From Sterolibacterium sp. (GTDB lineage: Bacteria > Pseudomonadota > Gammaproteobacteria > Burkholderiales > Rhodocyclaceae), in the NCBI GenBank assembly GCA_019105045.1, contig JAHRWT010000017.1:1-64000 (forward strand): 64,000 nt of DNA, given 5' to 3'. Made by a program: the position numbers and the translations under genes. Of the stretch, positions 56,910 to 64,000 are shown in pieces. Under the pieces are notes generated by a model, which made no database searches, had not been told where the DNA came from, and was given only the letters and a program-made list of their open reading frames with translations. The first letter of the stretch is position 1. Each line of letters begins with the position of its first letter.

Positions 56910-57809
56910 ATGTGTCTGATCCTTCTGGCCTGGCAGGTCCATCCCGACTATCCGCTGGTGATGGCGGCGAATCGGGATGAATTCTTCGCCCGCCCCACGG
57001 CGCCGGCTGAATTCTGGCCAGAACATCCCGCCAGCGGCGGACAAGTGCTGGCCGGTCGCGACCTGCAGGCAGGCGGCACCTGGCTGGGAATGACGCGCAG
57101 CGGGCGCTTTGCGGCCTTGACCAATTACCGGGAAGTTCGTGCACCTGCCGCCAGCCCGTCGCCCACGTCACGCTCACGCGGCCACCTGGTCAGTGATTTT
57201 TTGCAGGGCAGTGGCAGCGCGCCGGATTATCTGGCCAACGTGGCGGCCCAGGCGGCCGACTACGAAGCCTTCAATCTGCTGTGCGGCCAGCTCCCTTCAG
57301 CGCATGGCGCAGCCGCTGGCCTCTGGTATTACTCGAACCGCGACATGACTGAACGCAAGGAGCCGCCGGCGGCGAGAGACGCTCCAGCCGCTCCAGCCGC
57401 ACAGGGACCGATACAGGCATTGGCACCGGGTATTTATGGCCTGAGCAATCATCTGCTCGATGCGCCCTGGCCCAAGGTCACCGAAGGCAAATCCGCCCTC
57501 ACCCTGGCGCTGGCGGACCTGCCTGAAAAAGCCCCCCTGTTCGAACTGTTGCGCAACAACAAGACTTACGCCGATAAAGAACTGCCGCGCACCGGCATCA
57601 GCCTGGATTGGGAACGCGCGCTGTCGGCGGCCTTCATCCGCTCGGCACAGATGCCCCATTACGGCACACGCAGTTCAACCGTCCTGCTCTGCGATCGCCA
57701 GCAGCACATTGATTTTGCCGAGCAGACCTATCCGGCAGAAGGCGCGGAAGCCACGGCCACCACTTCCAGCCAGTACCGCCAGTTTCGCTTCCCGCTGCTG
57801 GCCGGCTGA
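56910..57809 (+). CDS. NRDE (TANGO2-like) family protein
   Basis: MCLILLAWQVHPDYPLVMAANRDEFFARPTAPAEFW. Confidence 0.93.
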   Translation: MCLILLAWQVHPDYPLVMAANRDEFFARPTAPAEFWPEHPASGGQVLAGRDLQAGGTWLGMTRSGRFAALTNYREVRAPAASPSPTSRSRGHLVSDFLQGSGSAPDYLANVAAQAADYEAFNLLCGQLPSAHGAAAGLWYYSNRDMTERKEPPAARDAPAAPAAQGPIQALAPGIYGLSNHLLDAPWPKVTEGKSALTLALADLPEKAPLFELLRNNKTYADKELPRTGISLDWERALSAAFIRSAQMPHYGTRSSTVLLCDRQQHIDFAEQTYPAEGAEATATTSSQYRQFRFPLLAG

Positions 57810-57812
57810 AGA

Positions 57813-58706
57813 TCAAAGCGTGCGCCGCATCAACACATGCGGCGAGCCGGTTTCCATGAAAGGCCGGCCTGTGCTCACGAAACCCAAACCCCGGTAGAAC
57901 GCTGCGGAATCCGCCCGGGCGTGCAGATAGACCTGCGGCAACCCCAACTGACGGGCATTTCCGAGCAATCGACGCAACAGATTGACACCGACCCGCAGTC
58001 CGCGCCAGTTTGGCAAAACGGCAATCCGTCCGATTCGGCCATCCGCCAGCAAGCGCCCGGTGCCAATGGGCTGCCCCGCCGCATCGAGCGCGACCACATG
58101 GTGGCTGACGGCATCCAGCGCATCCCATTCCAGCGCGGCCGCAATGCCTTTTTCCCTGATGAACACCGCCTCGCGCACGGGCCGTGCCGCACTCGCCAGC
58201 GCAGCCCAATCGCCACTGACCAGGCGGTACTCGGCGATATCCACCACGGTGGGCACAGCCACCAGATCAAACAGCTCGATGATGTCGCGATTGCGCATAC
58301 GCACGCAACCGATGGAACCGGGCACCCCCATCGGCGCATCATCCGGACAGCCATGCAGATACACATAGCGACGCATGGTATCCACCGCCCCCAGCCGATT
58401 GCGCCCCGGCTCGCATCCTGACAGCCAAAGGATGCGCGCCAGGATCCAGTCACGCCCCGGTGAGGCAGCAGCCAGCTCAGGCGACCACAATTCCCCCGTC
58501 GGTCGCCGTCGAACAAACACGGTCTGTGCCGCACAACCCTGACCGATCTTGGCGCGAATCACATGCCTGCCGCGTGGCGTGCAATGGCTGCCCGTTTGCT
58601 CACCAGCGCCATTTCTGGCTGTCGATACGGCGTAACGCTTGAGTAACATCCCGGCATGATCAAACAGCTCCAGTGTCTGTGCCGGCAGGCTGACAAAAAT
58701 TTCCAT
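57813..58706 (-). CDS. L,D-transpeptidase (YkuD-like) - GNAT acetyltransferase fusion
   Basis: YkuD motif YVYLHGCPDDAPMGVPGSIGCVRMRNRDIIELFD followed in frame by GNAT core IGRIAVLPNWRGLRVGVNLLRRLL...AFYRGLGFVSTG. Confidence 0.85.
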   Translation of the reverse strand: MEIFVSLPAQTLELFDHAGMLLKRYAVSTARNGAGEQTGSHCTPRGRHVIRAKIGQGCAAQTVFVRRRPTGELWSPELAAASPGRDWILARILWLSGCEPGRNRLGAVDTMRRYVYLHGCPDDAPMGVPGSIGCVRMRNRDIIELFDLVAVPTVVDIAEYRLVSGDWAALASAARPVREAVFIREKGIAAALEWDALDAVSHHVVALDAAGQPIGTGRLLADGRIGRIAVLPNWRGLRVGVNLLRRLLGNARQLGLPQVYLHARADSAAFYRGLGFVSTGRPFMETGSPHVLMRRTL

Positions 58707-58774
58707 AGGTTTAATTCTTAGCTGTACAGAGATTCAGGCCGATGTCGCAGCTTCAAGGCCGGCGCTTCAGACGC

Positions 58775-59368
<594 letters not shown>

Positions 59369-59407
59369 CTAAAAAACATCCTGACCCAACAAACCATCCC
59401 AAATGTA

Positions 59408-59459
59408 TTGACAAGGAAAAAATATTAAGATAGAATAGGGCCGTGACGTGACGTCACGT
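59408..59459 (+). promoter_or_regulatory. Near-consensus sigma70 promoter with a perfect palindrome at the predicted start site
   Basis: TTGACA (59408-59413) - 17 bp - TAGAAT (59431-59436), then ACGTGACGTCACGT perfect 14-bp palindrome at 59446-59459; A-rich tract upstream. Confidence 0.75.
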
Positions 59460-59493: not shown

Positions 59494-59598
59494 ATGTCCA
59501 AGTTCATCACCGCACTGACCCTGGTTGCAACCACGCTGATGGTTACCGCCTGTGGTGTTAACGGTACCTATGCCTTCACCATGGCATTTGGCAAGTAA
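59494..59598 (+). CDS. 34-aa small lipoprotein (not in supplied ORF track)
   Basis: MSKFITALTLVATTLMVTACGVNGTYAFTMAFGK*; lipobox VTAC; RBS-like AAGGGG about 7 nt upstream; own promoter and terminator. Confidence 0.75.
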   Translation: MSKFITALTLVATTLMVTACGVNGTYAFTMAFGK

Positions 59599-59664: not shown

Positions 59665-59836
59665 GGCTCATACCCCGTGGTTCAGCCTGAACAACCCTGC
59701 GATAACTGAAGCCTTGGCCAACAGTTTTTCGATGTATCAGCTTGAAAATCTGCCGAGTGATCGCGCACCAGTGGTGCGAACATCAGCGAGCAATCTTGCT
59801 CAGGCTACGCGGCATCGGCTCATCATCAATCAGCGC

Positions 59837-60758
59837 TTAGGATACCGCAGCCAGTCGCGTGGCGAGCAAGTCGACCTGCTCGGAAAACTTCTTCGCATCG
59901 GTCTTCTGCAACTGCGCCAGGTTGTGCAGCTTCCAGCGGATGCCCGGCAGATGTTCGAGGTGCGCGATGTCCAGCAGCGACCACTCCGGCGTGCCAGCAG
60001 CCAACGACAGCAGGAAGCGCCGCTCGTCGTCGTCCAAGCCCTGCTGGATTTCGCGCACCATGCGTTCCCGCGCGGCGAGCAGTGCATCGAGCGGAACATG
60101 CTCGGTCGTCATGCCTTGAAAATTGTGCTCGTAGTCGTACCGGATGTCCCGCAGTGGCGGGAACAGCACCTCATGGATCGGCCGATTGCTGCTGGCCAGG
60201 TAGACCACGAAGGCACGTCGGATGCCGGGCGTGATGCCCTCGTGCGCGAAGAGCTGCATCACGTCGAAGAGATCGCGCGGGTGCTGCCGATCAAGCGCCG
60301 CCACCAGCTTGCCGCCATACACGTCTTCCAGCGACACCACCGGAATCTCCAGATCAGCCATCAGCAGGTCGCGAGCCATCGGCGTCAGCGAAGCGCGGCG
60401 CACCGGCTGCACCGTGCCGCGCATGACGAAGTTGACTTCGACCTTGACCTGAATCGAGCCACGACGCACCAGCAGCTTGGTCTCCCCTGCTGCTGCCGCT
60501 GGTGTGTGCGTCTGGAATCCTCGCTTCTTCAGTCGCTCGGCAGCTTGCCGGACGGCCTCGTTGATGCGAGGCCAACGCCTCGTCACGCGGCAGCGTGTGA
60601 TCGGGAAAGATCAGATCGAGATCAACCGACAGACGCGGCATGTCGCGCACGAACAGATTGATCGCCGTGCCGCCCTTCAGCGCAAAAGTGTCATCCACGA
60701 ACACCAGCGGCGCCACCTGCGTCAGAAGGCGCGCGGTGTCGAGCCAGGTTTGATTCAT
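59837..60758 (-). pseudogene. AbiEii-type nucleotidyltransferase toxin, frameshifted
   Basis: Start MNQTWLDTARLLTQVAPLVFVDDTFALKGGTAINLFVRDMPRLSVDLDLIFPDHTLPRDEALA (60758 on) continues after about 60569 in another frame as RINEAVRQAAERLKKRGFQT...; removing one base restores ALARINEAV. Confidence 0.8.
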
Positions 60759-61492
60759 GGCTTGAGCACCAGCAGGCCGTCGGCCGACCGAGACACCCAG
60801 GACCGCTCGCTGCCCGTCGGCAGCGTGGCCGGATCGAGCTTGGCCGCCCAAGGCAGTGACATCTCGCGGCCGAGTTGCAGACACAGCCGCACGGTCTTGA
60901 CGTTCGTGCAACGTTGCAACAGCTCGCGCAGCACATCCGCGCGCAGGCTGTAAGTGCCTTCGACGAGTTCACGGGCTTCCTGCAAGGGCTGGCGCACGCC
61001 GACTTCGCTCAACAGTTCCAGCAAGGCGCGCTCCGGTGCCGACACCTGCGGCGCCCCGCTGCGCTGCTCGAACGGACCAACGTGCAACAAGGCGGCCGGC
61101 TGCTCGTCGAACAGCCGCTTGCGGTGGTACTCGGCTGGGAATCGTTCGGTGAACCAGTCCGGCAAGCGTGCCGCCTTCCAGCCATACAGATGCAGCATCG
61201 GCTGCTGCGACACGTACTGCCGCATACCGTACCAGTCCAGCGCCGACTTGCCGCCGACGTGCAGGCCGTCGAACCGGCGCTGCAACAGCAGCAGGCTGGG
61301 ATGAAGCGCCGGGGGATCGTTCGGACGGCAAAACACCCCCCGCGCCAAGCGCGTAAGCCAGCCCGCCCGAACGTAGTGAACGGCCAGGTCGGCAGAGATA
61401 CTCAGCGCCGCCAAGTCCTCCGAGGTCAGCGGCGTTCCCGGTGCCAGCCGGGTGTAGAGCGCGTTTAGCTTGCTTGAATTGGTCGTAGCCAT
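60755..61492 (-). CDS. AbiEi-type antitoxin/transcriptional regulator
   Basis: MATTNSSKLNALYTRLAPGTPLTSEDLAALSISADLAVHYVRAGWLTRLARGVFCRP wHTH; ATGA overlap with downstream nucleotidyltransferase. Confidence 0.85.
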   Translation of the reverse strand: MATTNSSKLNALYTRLAPGTPLTSEDLAALSISADLAVHYVRAGWLTRLARGVFCRPNDPPALHPSLLLLQRRFDGLHVGGKSALDWYGMRQYVSQQPMLHLYGWKAARLPDWFTERFPAEYHRKRLFDEQPAALLHVGPFEQRSGAPQVSAPERALLELLSEVGVRQPLQEARELVEGTYSLRADVLRELLQRCTNVKTVRLCLQLGREMSLPWAAKLDPATLPTGSERSWVSRSADGLLVLKP

Positions 61493-61565
61493 GCTACGAC
61501 TTTTACAACTTTCCCAAGTGAAAGTCAATTTAATATGACCCATCCAGTCGTAGTATGGATACGAC
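61482..61565 (-). promoter_or_regulatory. AbiE promoter with two matched inverted repeats
   Basis: GTCGTAGCCATGCTACGAC (61482-61500) and GTCGTAGTATGGATACGAC (61547-61565), both GTCGTA-N7-TACGAC; minus-strand TTGACT (61523-61528) - 17 bp - TAAAAG (61500-61505) between them. Confidence 0.7.
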
Positions 61566-62109
61566 AATAACAGCATATCCAAAATCTCATCCCTTCGGCG
61601 CAGCAGCGCAGAAAGACGGTTGCTTGTCGTCCCCTCTGCCCCGCCTGAATCCCCGATCTGCCGCCATGAACGCCTCCAGCATGTGCGGGATCAACGGTCA
61701 GCAAGCGGTTCTGGAAGACCGGCAGGATGTCCCGGTCGATGATGTACTTGCGCATGGCGCGGGTGCTGTCGGCCAGCCTTACGTTGACCAGCCACGTCTC
61801 CATCGCCGCACCGAAGATCTTGATGGCGACCACCCGGCGTTTCTCACGCTGCTTTTCCAGCGCGGGCGAGACACCTTTGAGAATGGTTTTGCGCGCGTCC
61901 AGCAGCAGTTCGCGCGCCATTGCCAGCGAGATGCCACCAGGGCCATAGCGTCCGAGGGTCAGCGTCTCGCGGCGGCCGTGGAGCCGGTAATCGTAGCGGA
62001 ACGTGATCGTTCCGCCAGGCGATACCGTCACGTACATCCCGTCTCGGTCAGAAGTCTTATAAATCTTTGGCTTAGGTTTGAAATTGCGTAGTGCAACGTC
62101 GGTCAGCAT
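61525..62109 (-). pseudogene. Truncated P4-type tyrosine recombinase (DUF4102 N-terminal region only)
   Basis: MLTDVALRNFKPKPKIYKTSDRDGMYVTVSPGGTITFRYDYRLHGRRETLTLGRYGPGGISLAMARELLLDARKTILKG...; resemblance ends near LLTVDP (about 61690); no catalytic R-H-R-Y domain before the AbiE promoter. Confidence 0.85.
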
Positions 62110-62218
62110 CGAGGTTTCCTCCGGCATGTGACGGATTTACCGTCAGGTTTTACCGTCAGGGACCCCCCTGGAGACCTGCTGATGCCCGGAAAGCCCCATG
62201 AAACAAGCTTTCCCGAGA

Positions 62219-62249
62219 AGGCTTTTACCGTCAAAGACGGTAAAAGCCT
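62219..62249. repeat. Perfect 14-bp inverted repeat, 3-nt loop
   Basis: AGGCTTTTACCGTC AAA GACGGTAAAAGCCT. Confidence 0.9.
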
Positions 62250-62453
62250 GAATAGTGAACGAGAGTGTCTTAATCCGGCCTCGATTTTTACCGTCAGCTC
62301 TACCGTCAACCTTTTCTGTTGGCCGGCGCTAGCTACCGATAGCCGCCGTGACGTATTTTTTTCAATATCAACACGTTACGTTGGTTTCTCGATAGCTGGC
62401 GATAGTCCTCGAAGGACGTAAATTCACTCCCACTCAATTATCAACGAGCAATT

Positions 62454-62550
62454 GAAACCCGCATGAATACTGGGTTCCGCTCGTTTCACCCCTGCTGATA
62501 CCGTCACTGATACCGTCAAAAAATGAACGTTTAGTATTCATGCGGGTTTC
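62454..62550. repeat. Perfect 18-bp inverted repeat, 61-bp spacer
   Basis: GAAACCCGCATGAATACT (62454-62471) and AGTATTCATGCGGGTTTC (62533-62550). Confidence 0.9.
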
Positions 62551-62736
62551 CGGGCGATTGTGGAAAAACAAGCTTTCGCGGACATTCGCCGACGTTCGGA
62601 AAATCGACGAATTATCCATGTCACGAATGTAGCAGACATCCACCTGTTTTGTGACGGTATCGGTGGCAGATTGGCCAGTTCCTGATACCGTCAAATCGCC
62701 CGAGAACCCTTGCGCTGAGTGGTTCTCGGTAATCCC

Positions 62737-63045
62737 CTACCCCTCCCCCACTCGCACGGCGTATCCCGCCTCGCGCTGGCTGCGAATCGCCAGTACAAAA
62801 ACGATGTCCATTTCCGGCACATAACGATAGAGTGCAAGATAACCTCGGGTACGGCGACCAATGACAAGTTCCCGCTTGCCGTTCGCCACCGGACGACCGA
62901 TCAGCGGGTTCTGCTCCAGGACATCTAAAGCGGCGATGATTTCTCCAATGCGCTGGCCAGGATTTTCGATCTGATAGGTTGCCAGGTGGTCAAGGATGCG
63001 GTCGAAGTCCTCCGCAACCTCTGGGGCCAACTCGATCTTGGCCAT
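62737..63045 (-). CDS. RelE/ParE family toxin
   Basis: MAKIELAPEVAEDFDRILDHLATYQIENPGQRIGEIIAALDVLEQNPLIGRPVANGKRELVIGRRTRGYLALYRYVPEMDIVFVLAIRSQREAGY. Confidence 0.88.
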   Translation of the reverse strand: MAKIELAPEVAEDFDRILDHLATYQIENPGQRIGEIIAALDVLEQNPLIGRPVANGKRELVIGRRTRGYLALYRYVPEMDIVFVLAIRSQREAGYAVRVGEG

Positions 63046-63046
63046 T

Positions 63047-63340
63047 TCAGCGTGCGAGTTTTCGGGCTACGGGACGCTTGGCAGATTTTCCGGCGACACG
63101 GGCTTCGAGATACTTGCGCATCTCGGTCCAGGGAATGGTTTTTCCAGAAGAGACGATGTCAGCGTAGCGCTGTTCGGCGACCCCATCAAAATCCGCCCTG
63201 AGTTCTGCCTGCTGGGTCTTTTCGGCAATGGCTTCAAGAATGAAACCATGGGCTGTCGTCCCGGAGCGCTTCGCTGCGGTTGCCACCCGTGCTTTCAGAT
63301 CTTCGGGGAGGCGAATGGTCGTGGTGGTCATAACAGACAC
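63047..63340 (-). CDS. RHH (CopG/ParD-like) antitoxin
   Basis: TTTTIRLPEDLKARVATAAKRSGTTAHGFILEAIAEKTQ; stop is 1 nt upstream of toxin ATG. Confidence 0.85.
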   Translation of the reverse strand: MSVMTTTTIRLPEDLKARVATAAKRSGTTAHGFILEAIAEKTQQAELRADFDGVAEQRYADIVSSGKTIPWTEMRKYLEARVAGKSAKRPVARKLAR

Positions 63341-63366
63341 TCCGATTCAGAGATTGGAGCCTTATG

Positions 63367-63421
63367 GTAGCACTTATGTGCTACAACGGGCAGCCAGATT
63401 TTCTCCGCAATATTTGCGGAG
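63367..63421. promoter_or_regulatory. Two palindromes upstream of the RHH antitoxin
   Basis: GTAGCACTTATGTGCTAC (63367-63384) and CTCCGCAATATTTGCGGAG (63403-63421). Confidence 0.6.
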
Positions 63422-63461
63422 ATTGACAGCACTTATCTCCGCACGGTCACCAAACCTACGC

Positions 63462-63710
63462 TTACTCCCCTTCCCCATCTGGCTTTACGGGCAGGTGAAA
63501 GACCACCTCGATCCCGTGCCGACGGCACACCTCCAGTACCTTGCCGATTTGGGCCGTGGGCTTGCCCTGCTCCACTTTGTTCAGGAATGGCAAGCTGACA
63601 TTGCACAGGCCGGCCATGTCCCGTTGCGTCAGCCCCGTCTCTTTGCGCAATAGGCGAAGAATGGCGCCAATATCGTTGGCCGAGGTAATCGAAATGGTAC
63701 GGGAAGTCAT
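63462..63710 (-). CDS. HipB-like XRE regulator (orphan)
   Basis: IGAILRLLRKETGLTQRDMAGLCNVSLPFLNKVEQGKPTAQIGKVLEVCRRHGIEVVFHLP. Confidence 0.85.
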   Translation of the reverse strand: MTSRTISITSANDIGAILRLLRKETGLTQRDMAGLCNVSLPFLNKVEQGKPTAQIGKVLEVCRRHGIEVVFHLPVKPDGEGE

Positions 63711-63720
63711 GGTCAGATGA

Positions 63721-63784
63721 TGAACGGTCGTTGATTGTCCGCATCAAAGTAACTCGATTCGGATAAATACTCAACGACCGTTGA
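63721..63784 (-). promoter_or_regulatory. XRE promoter bracketed by two operator copies
   Basis: AACGGTCGTTGA (63723-63734) and TCAACGACCGTT(GA) (63771-63784), a perfect 12-bp inverted pair, flanking a minus-strand TTGAGT-17-TACTTT promoter. Confidence 0.6.
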
Positions 63785-64000
63785 TCCAGTTGTCCAGGTC
63801 AGATCTGGCTGATATCCGACAAGTCATGATGCGATCCTGATCCTTCAATGAGTGACAGGGATGCCGAAACAATTGATGCGGGATCTTCGCAATCCCCGAC
63901 TCACTTGAAAGAGATTGGAGTACGCTAGTTGTGGCTACCACTTTGAAGGAAGGATCAATGAACGTTTGCCATCGATCGTCGGTTGCCAATGAGTGGCCGG

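Follow-up and report, generated by a model that had tools for sequence, protein, structure and literature searches.

A guaA-type attachment site of Sterolibacterium sp. as a very probable junction between two stacked islands

We analyzed an attP-like site in a 64,000-nt stretch of Sterolibacterium sp. DNA (contig C45), the whole of which is called the window below. We propose, with a probability of about 90%, that this site is an internal junction in a tandem stack of guaA-targeting islands, made of the right end of one element (element A) and the left end of a relic of another (relic B). The right end of A (62499-62693) and the left end of B (62138-62308 plus int) would share one guaA 3'-end core (62424-62438), and the POP' layout reminiscent of an attP would thus result from this single common core. 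A tandem-array junction beside a relic was among the origins considered in an earlier note on this DNA, and it is the one favored by the ICE-matched left half of the site, by its foreign P' half and by junctions of the same geometry in other genomes. The features are the following.

58775-59353, minus strand: tadA, which directly follows guaA in some island-free relatives (adjacent in G439 and G003)
59806, no strand: end of the homology to the ICE, 30 bp short of the ICE's own right-end arms
59837-60758, minus strand: AbiEii toxin gene of relic B, whose first third carries a frameshift when compared with the intact copy of the ICE
60755-61582, minus strand: AbiEi antitoxin of relic B, sharing 90% identity with the copy beside DUF2274 in the Diaphorobacter nitroreducens ICE
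61637-61694, minus strand: tail of the DUF2274 gene (the gene follows trbI in the intact ICE)
61694-61696, no strand: deletion junction, from int codon 144 into the reading frame of the DUF2274 gene; compared with the ICE, about 55.0 kb are absent (ICE 2561 to 57533)
61696-62127, minus strand: truncated P4-type (DUF4102) tyrosine integrase, codons 1-144 of 424 (Pfam Arm-DNA-bind_3)
62138-62308, minus strand: putative P arm region, left end of relic B, with arms at 62301, 62289, 62226, 62151 and 62138
62424-62438, minus strand: shared core ATTGAGTGGGAGTGA (guaA 3' end, Ile-Glu-Trp-Glu-stop), including the 8-bp GAGTGGGA recombination core of guaA elements
62499-62693, minus strand: putative P' arm region, right end of element A, with TGACGGTATC arms at 62511 and 62499, an outer direct arm at 62686 and an inverted arm at 62652
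62737-64000, no strand: right-end interior of element A, which continues outside the window as far as position 68540, where the contig ends, without reaching guaA
62737-63045, minus strand: ParE-like toxin of element A
63047-63340, minus strand: putative ParD-type partner, element A
63462-63710, minus strand: HTH protein of element A

Arm-like repeats and core

The repeat sites, spacings and core listed in the earlier note were all recovered, coordinates and strands included. TACCGTCA starts at 62138, 62151, 62226, 62289, 62301, 62499, 62511 and 62686, and TGACGGTA at 62652; three pairs among them are spaced by 13, 12 and 12 bp. The chance expectation is indeed far below one, as had been claimed, since a first-order Markov model of the local sequence predicts 0.018 sites in 556 bp where nine are present. 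Over the entire window, 15 matches were counted for 0.52 expected, and no shuffle reached 15. Another copy, at 62023, is internal to the integrase gene and probably does not serve as an arm. The core reads TCACTCCCACTCAAT, and its complement codes for IEWE-stop.

Two local symmetries were also observed. Arm 62226 sits in a palindrome, CTTTTACCGTC...GACGGTAAAAG (62222-62246), which is kept in closer relatives, and this place therefore combines a full arm site with a partial one. Across the core, the two inner P' arms are bracketed by an exact inverted repeat of 18 bp, GAAACCCGCATGAATACT (62454-62471) and AGTATTCATGCGGGTTTC (62533-62550); its CATGCGGG portion occurs in other right ends, where the full repeat was not seen.

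Scanning one genome per species provided 80 relatives of the integrase, with 72-94% identity. In nearly all of them, TGACGGTA arms are present and a GAGTGGGA-type core precedes int by about 303-316 bp, with offsets that hardly vary. Repeats of this kind are therefore found near related integrases, and their absence there was what the earlier note would have taken as a refutation. In 65 of the 80 loci guaA terminates in the core; as judged from their sequence, these loci are ordinary attL sites and identify the left half of the window site. An arm pair of the P' kind precedes the core in 12 of the 14 loci without an abutting guaA versus none of the 63 with it, a count that leaves out L077, whose contig starts at the core, and two guaA loci with too little upstream sequence on their contigs. 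L040 belongs to the 12 loci with an arm pair; an insert separates it from guaA, which lies 3.7 kb upstream. Different elements are frequently stacked at guaA-type cores, namely at about 12 of the 80 loci.

Concerning right ends, requiring two exact TGACGGTA arms ahead of the core gave no match in 28 genomes, because the second arm is usually CGACGGTA. With a looser pattern, 20 right ends were obtained in 18 of the 28 genomes, whose two arms are placed at about -84 and -72 relative to the GAGTGGGA core, against 1 match for the reversed control pattern. Most of these right ends then lead into unrelated sequence, and five of them (L156, L162, L163, L164 and L175) lead directly into another left end. 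The guaA-type core flanked on both sides by arm-like sites, as first described in the earlier note, therefore has positions that recur in 80 related loci and 20 right ends. We regard the TGACGGTA sites as putative integrase arm sites, in view of their position and conservation and because the enzyme has an arm-binding domain.

One could still assume that TACCGTCA is a dispersed repeat or a regulatory site with no link to integrases, and a few isolated copies do exist elsewhere in the window. This assumption is however extremely improbable, given the fixed offsets kept on both sides of the core in the two sets of ends, and given that the spaced pair TACCGTCA-N4-TACCGTCA has two copies in the genome, both at this locus.

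Origin of the two halves

The integrase gene (62127-61525) encodes an arm-binding domain and lacks the catalytic domain, which in an intact relative (PF00589) occupies residues 210-382. Its product is 92-93% identical to the D. nitroreducens integrase, and the match ends at residue 144/145 of 424. The integrase had been called dead in the earlier note, in agreement with the 144 residues that are left, and no second copy was found elsewhere in this assembly.

The comparison with D. nitroreducens DSM 15985 (contig RJVL01000007) indicates what relic B derives from. This contig carries, in this order, guaA, a 57.7-kb ICE, a POP' junction, a second element and a third core. The ICE itself is arranged as guaA-core-arms-int, about 49 kb, trbJ, trbL, trbF, trbG and trbI, then DUF2274-AbiEi-AbiEii-right arms-core, and its right core is followed by the left arms of the second element, which has a truncated int, and by the third core. 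Window positions 62438-61695 correspond to the left end of the ICE (1822-2561) with 94.1% DNA identity, and positions 61696-59806 to its right part (57533-59422, DUF2274-AbiEi-AbiEii) with 91.4% DNA identity. The P arms of relic B are found at +127, +139, +202, +277 and +290 from the core, and the left arms of the ICE at +127, +139, +202, +273 and +286. Element B would thus be the relic of an ICE like the one inserted at the D. nitroreducens guaA: the loss of 55 kb from its interior would have joined int codon 144 to DUF2274, AbiEii would have been frameshifted, and the right end would have been lost together with attR beside tadA. AbiEi is still open although AbiEii is frameshifted.

An attR of relic B was sought near tadA and none was recognizable; the interval from tadA to int contains no core, even with up to 2 mismatches allowed. 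There is therefore no direct core repeat at the right end of element B, which is why we call B a relic of a guaA island. Between tadA and the relic, near the expected place of the lost attR, a small entericidin-like lipoprotein ORF and a terminator-like hairpin are present (59494-59598).

The P' half has another history. Its inner arms, 62511 and 62499, are located 83 and 71 bp before the core, and TTGATAAT adjoins the core, as in other right ends; those of D. nitroreducens have their inner arms at -84 and -72/-71. The identity of this half to other right ends is 58-74%, for an unrelated baseline of about 61-63%. This is little above the baseline, and the assignment as a right end therefore rests on arm spacing, arm sequence and core. 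We attribute the arms at 62499-62693 to the neighboring element A because the own right side of relic B is on the int side.

Past the window and up to the contig end, element A encodes a GGDEF protein, fumC and DUF5619. In this part of its cargo (L008 1287-4538, that is contig C45 65287-68538), fumC and the DUF5619 protein lie beside a possible cation/proton antiporter, and the set looks stress-related. No similarity of the cargo to the islands compared was detected, and the comparison with plasmids gave one short weak match. Element A is incomplete on the contig and its integrase was not found there; it presumably carries, or once carried, one.

Should the site be instead the true attP of a single element, coming from a circle integrated via another point or from a captured relic? 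The POP' geometry is complete and TGACGGTA is common to all arms. Moreover, in genome G415, an integrase with 92% identity to that of D. nitroreducens is followed, about 13 kb downstream, by a right end of TGACGGTATC type, so that arm subtype alone does not speak against a single element; for the same reason, we dropped the difference between TGACGGTATC and TGACGGTAAA arms as a proof of two elements. However, the P side shares 94% identity with the D. nitroreducens ICE whereas the P' side, compared with the right end of the same ICE, is at the 62% of the baseline. The right-end cargo of the relic (AbiE) stands on the int side, ending at 59806, that is 30 bp before the position of the ICE arms, and the contig shows a different cargo beyond 62693, where AbiE/DUF2274-type cargo would be expected. 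A single-element attP is thus highly improbable, and the description of the site as the apparently intact attP of one element has to be abandoned in favor of a junction between A and B.

The guaA-tadA interval and related arrays

The sole guaA of this genome is on another contig, C74, where it ends in ATCGAGTGGGAGTGA; this contig stops 192 bp past the stop codon. We first suspected an empty guaA site there, a possibility that was rejected since a GIsul2-type left end is present. Indeed, the bases after guaA match the sequence preceding the GIsul2-type integrase of plasmid R485 with 90% identity over 197 bp, and on this match we assign to this guaA the left end of a third element, of GIsul2 type. 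Between the second element and the empty attB that the earlier note had envisaged at the guaA 3' end, it is therefore the former that is found.

The tadA side is on C45 and the guaA side on C74, with a gap between them in a draft assembly of 121 contigs that is 85% complete with 5.8% contamination. The simplest reading, inferred across this contig gap, would be that an array of three or more elements separates guaA from tadA. A genome of the same genus has a 48-kb guaA-tadA interval with three cores, one ending guaA and two preceded by right-end arms, of the TGACGGTA kind for one core and of the ATGGTAT kind for the other.

Such a draft, in which the core is repeated among guaA elements, could also have led assembly or binning to fuse two unrelated sequences at the core. 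We consider this artefact very unlikely: the common core is only about 15 bp, which is short for assembler joining, and junctions of the same geometry are present in five other genomes, one of them on a 269-kb contig. In D. nitroreducens, the second element (L195/L194, G401:C7, about 60.2 kb into the array) has an int that ends at about codon 116, fused to another right end with a GAGTGGG core, and is a second, independent relic of the same kind.

Formation of the hybrid junction and comparison with known systems

The sites of the guaA elements are proposed to work as follows. The P4-type integrase would bind the TGACGGTA arms and recombine inside GAGTGGGA, as expected from its family. An incoming circle could use whichever guaA-type core it meets, even that at the edge of a resident island, and islands would in this way stack between guaA and tadA. 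From its decay and its place beside tadA, B is probably the older element, and A would have been inserted after it. The guaA gene is known as a hotspot of islands and ICEs, some of them with resistance genes. Hybrid junctions between two guaA elements belong to the ordinary outcomes there, and this one is described in unusual detail.

One may also wonder whether the hybrid POP' is a working landing and exit site, at which the integrase of a related element uses arms from two islands. We find this doubtful. If it were the case, mixed and partly dead islands beside guaA could still be trapped, enlarged or mobilized together. A POP' layout in an assembly need not in any case correspond to an excised circle or to an intact attP. 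More generally, our analysis yields, for one large family of guaA integrases, a consistent map of the putative arm sites that flank the core. By means of this map, left ends, right ends and tandem junctions can be called from sequence alone. No comparable map for the guaA integrase family was found in a short literature search.

Several known systems can be compared with this junction. The D. nitroreducens ICE has the same left end (core, arms and int), the same DUF2274-AbiEi-AbiEii right part and a POP' tandem junction to an element with a truncated int; unlike relic B, which is minus 55 kb and its right end, it is intact over 57.7 kb, with a full int and trb genes. GIsul2, for which both the core and integrase-dependent recombination have been established experimentally, also targets the guaA 3' end with a GAGTGGGA core and a P4-type integrase, and has more than one att site per array (PMC9376610). 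Its integrase type is however about 57% identical to the D. nitroreducens one, and its left-end repeats are of the ATGGCAT/GATACCAT type and not TGACGGTA. ICERspD18B, likened here by description, is an ICE inserted at the guaA 3' end with direct repeats containing GAGTGGGA, and its circular form has been shown (PMC7775301); host and cargo are different. Lastly, tandem stacking of site-specific islands has been demonstrated experimentally with SGI1 (PMC2297512). SGI1 arrays share with the present site the head-to-tail stacking at one attachment site, but they involve another integrase and another target, thdF, and consist of copies of one element rather than of different elements.
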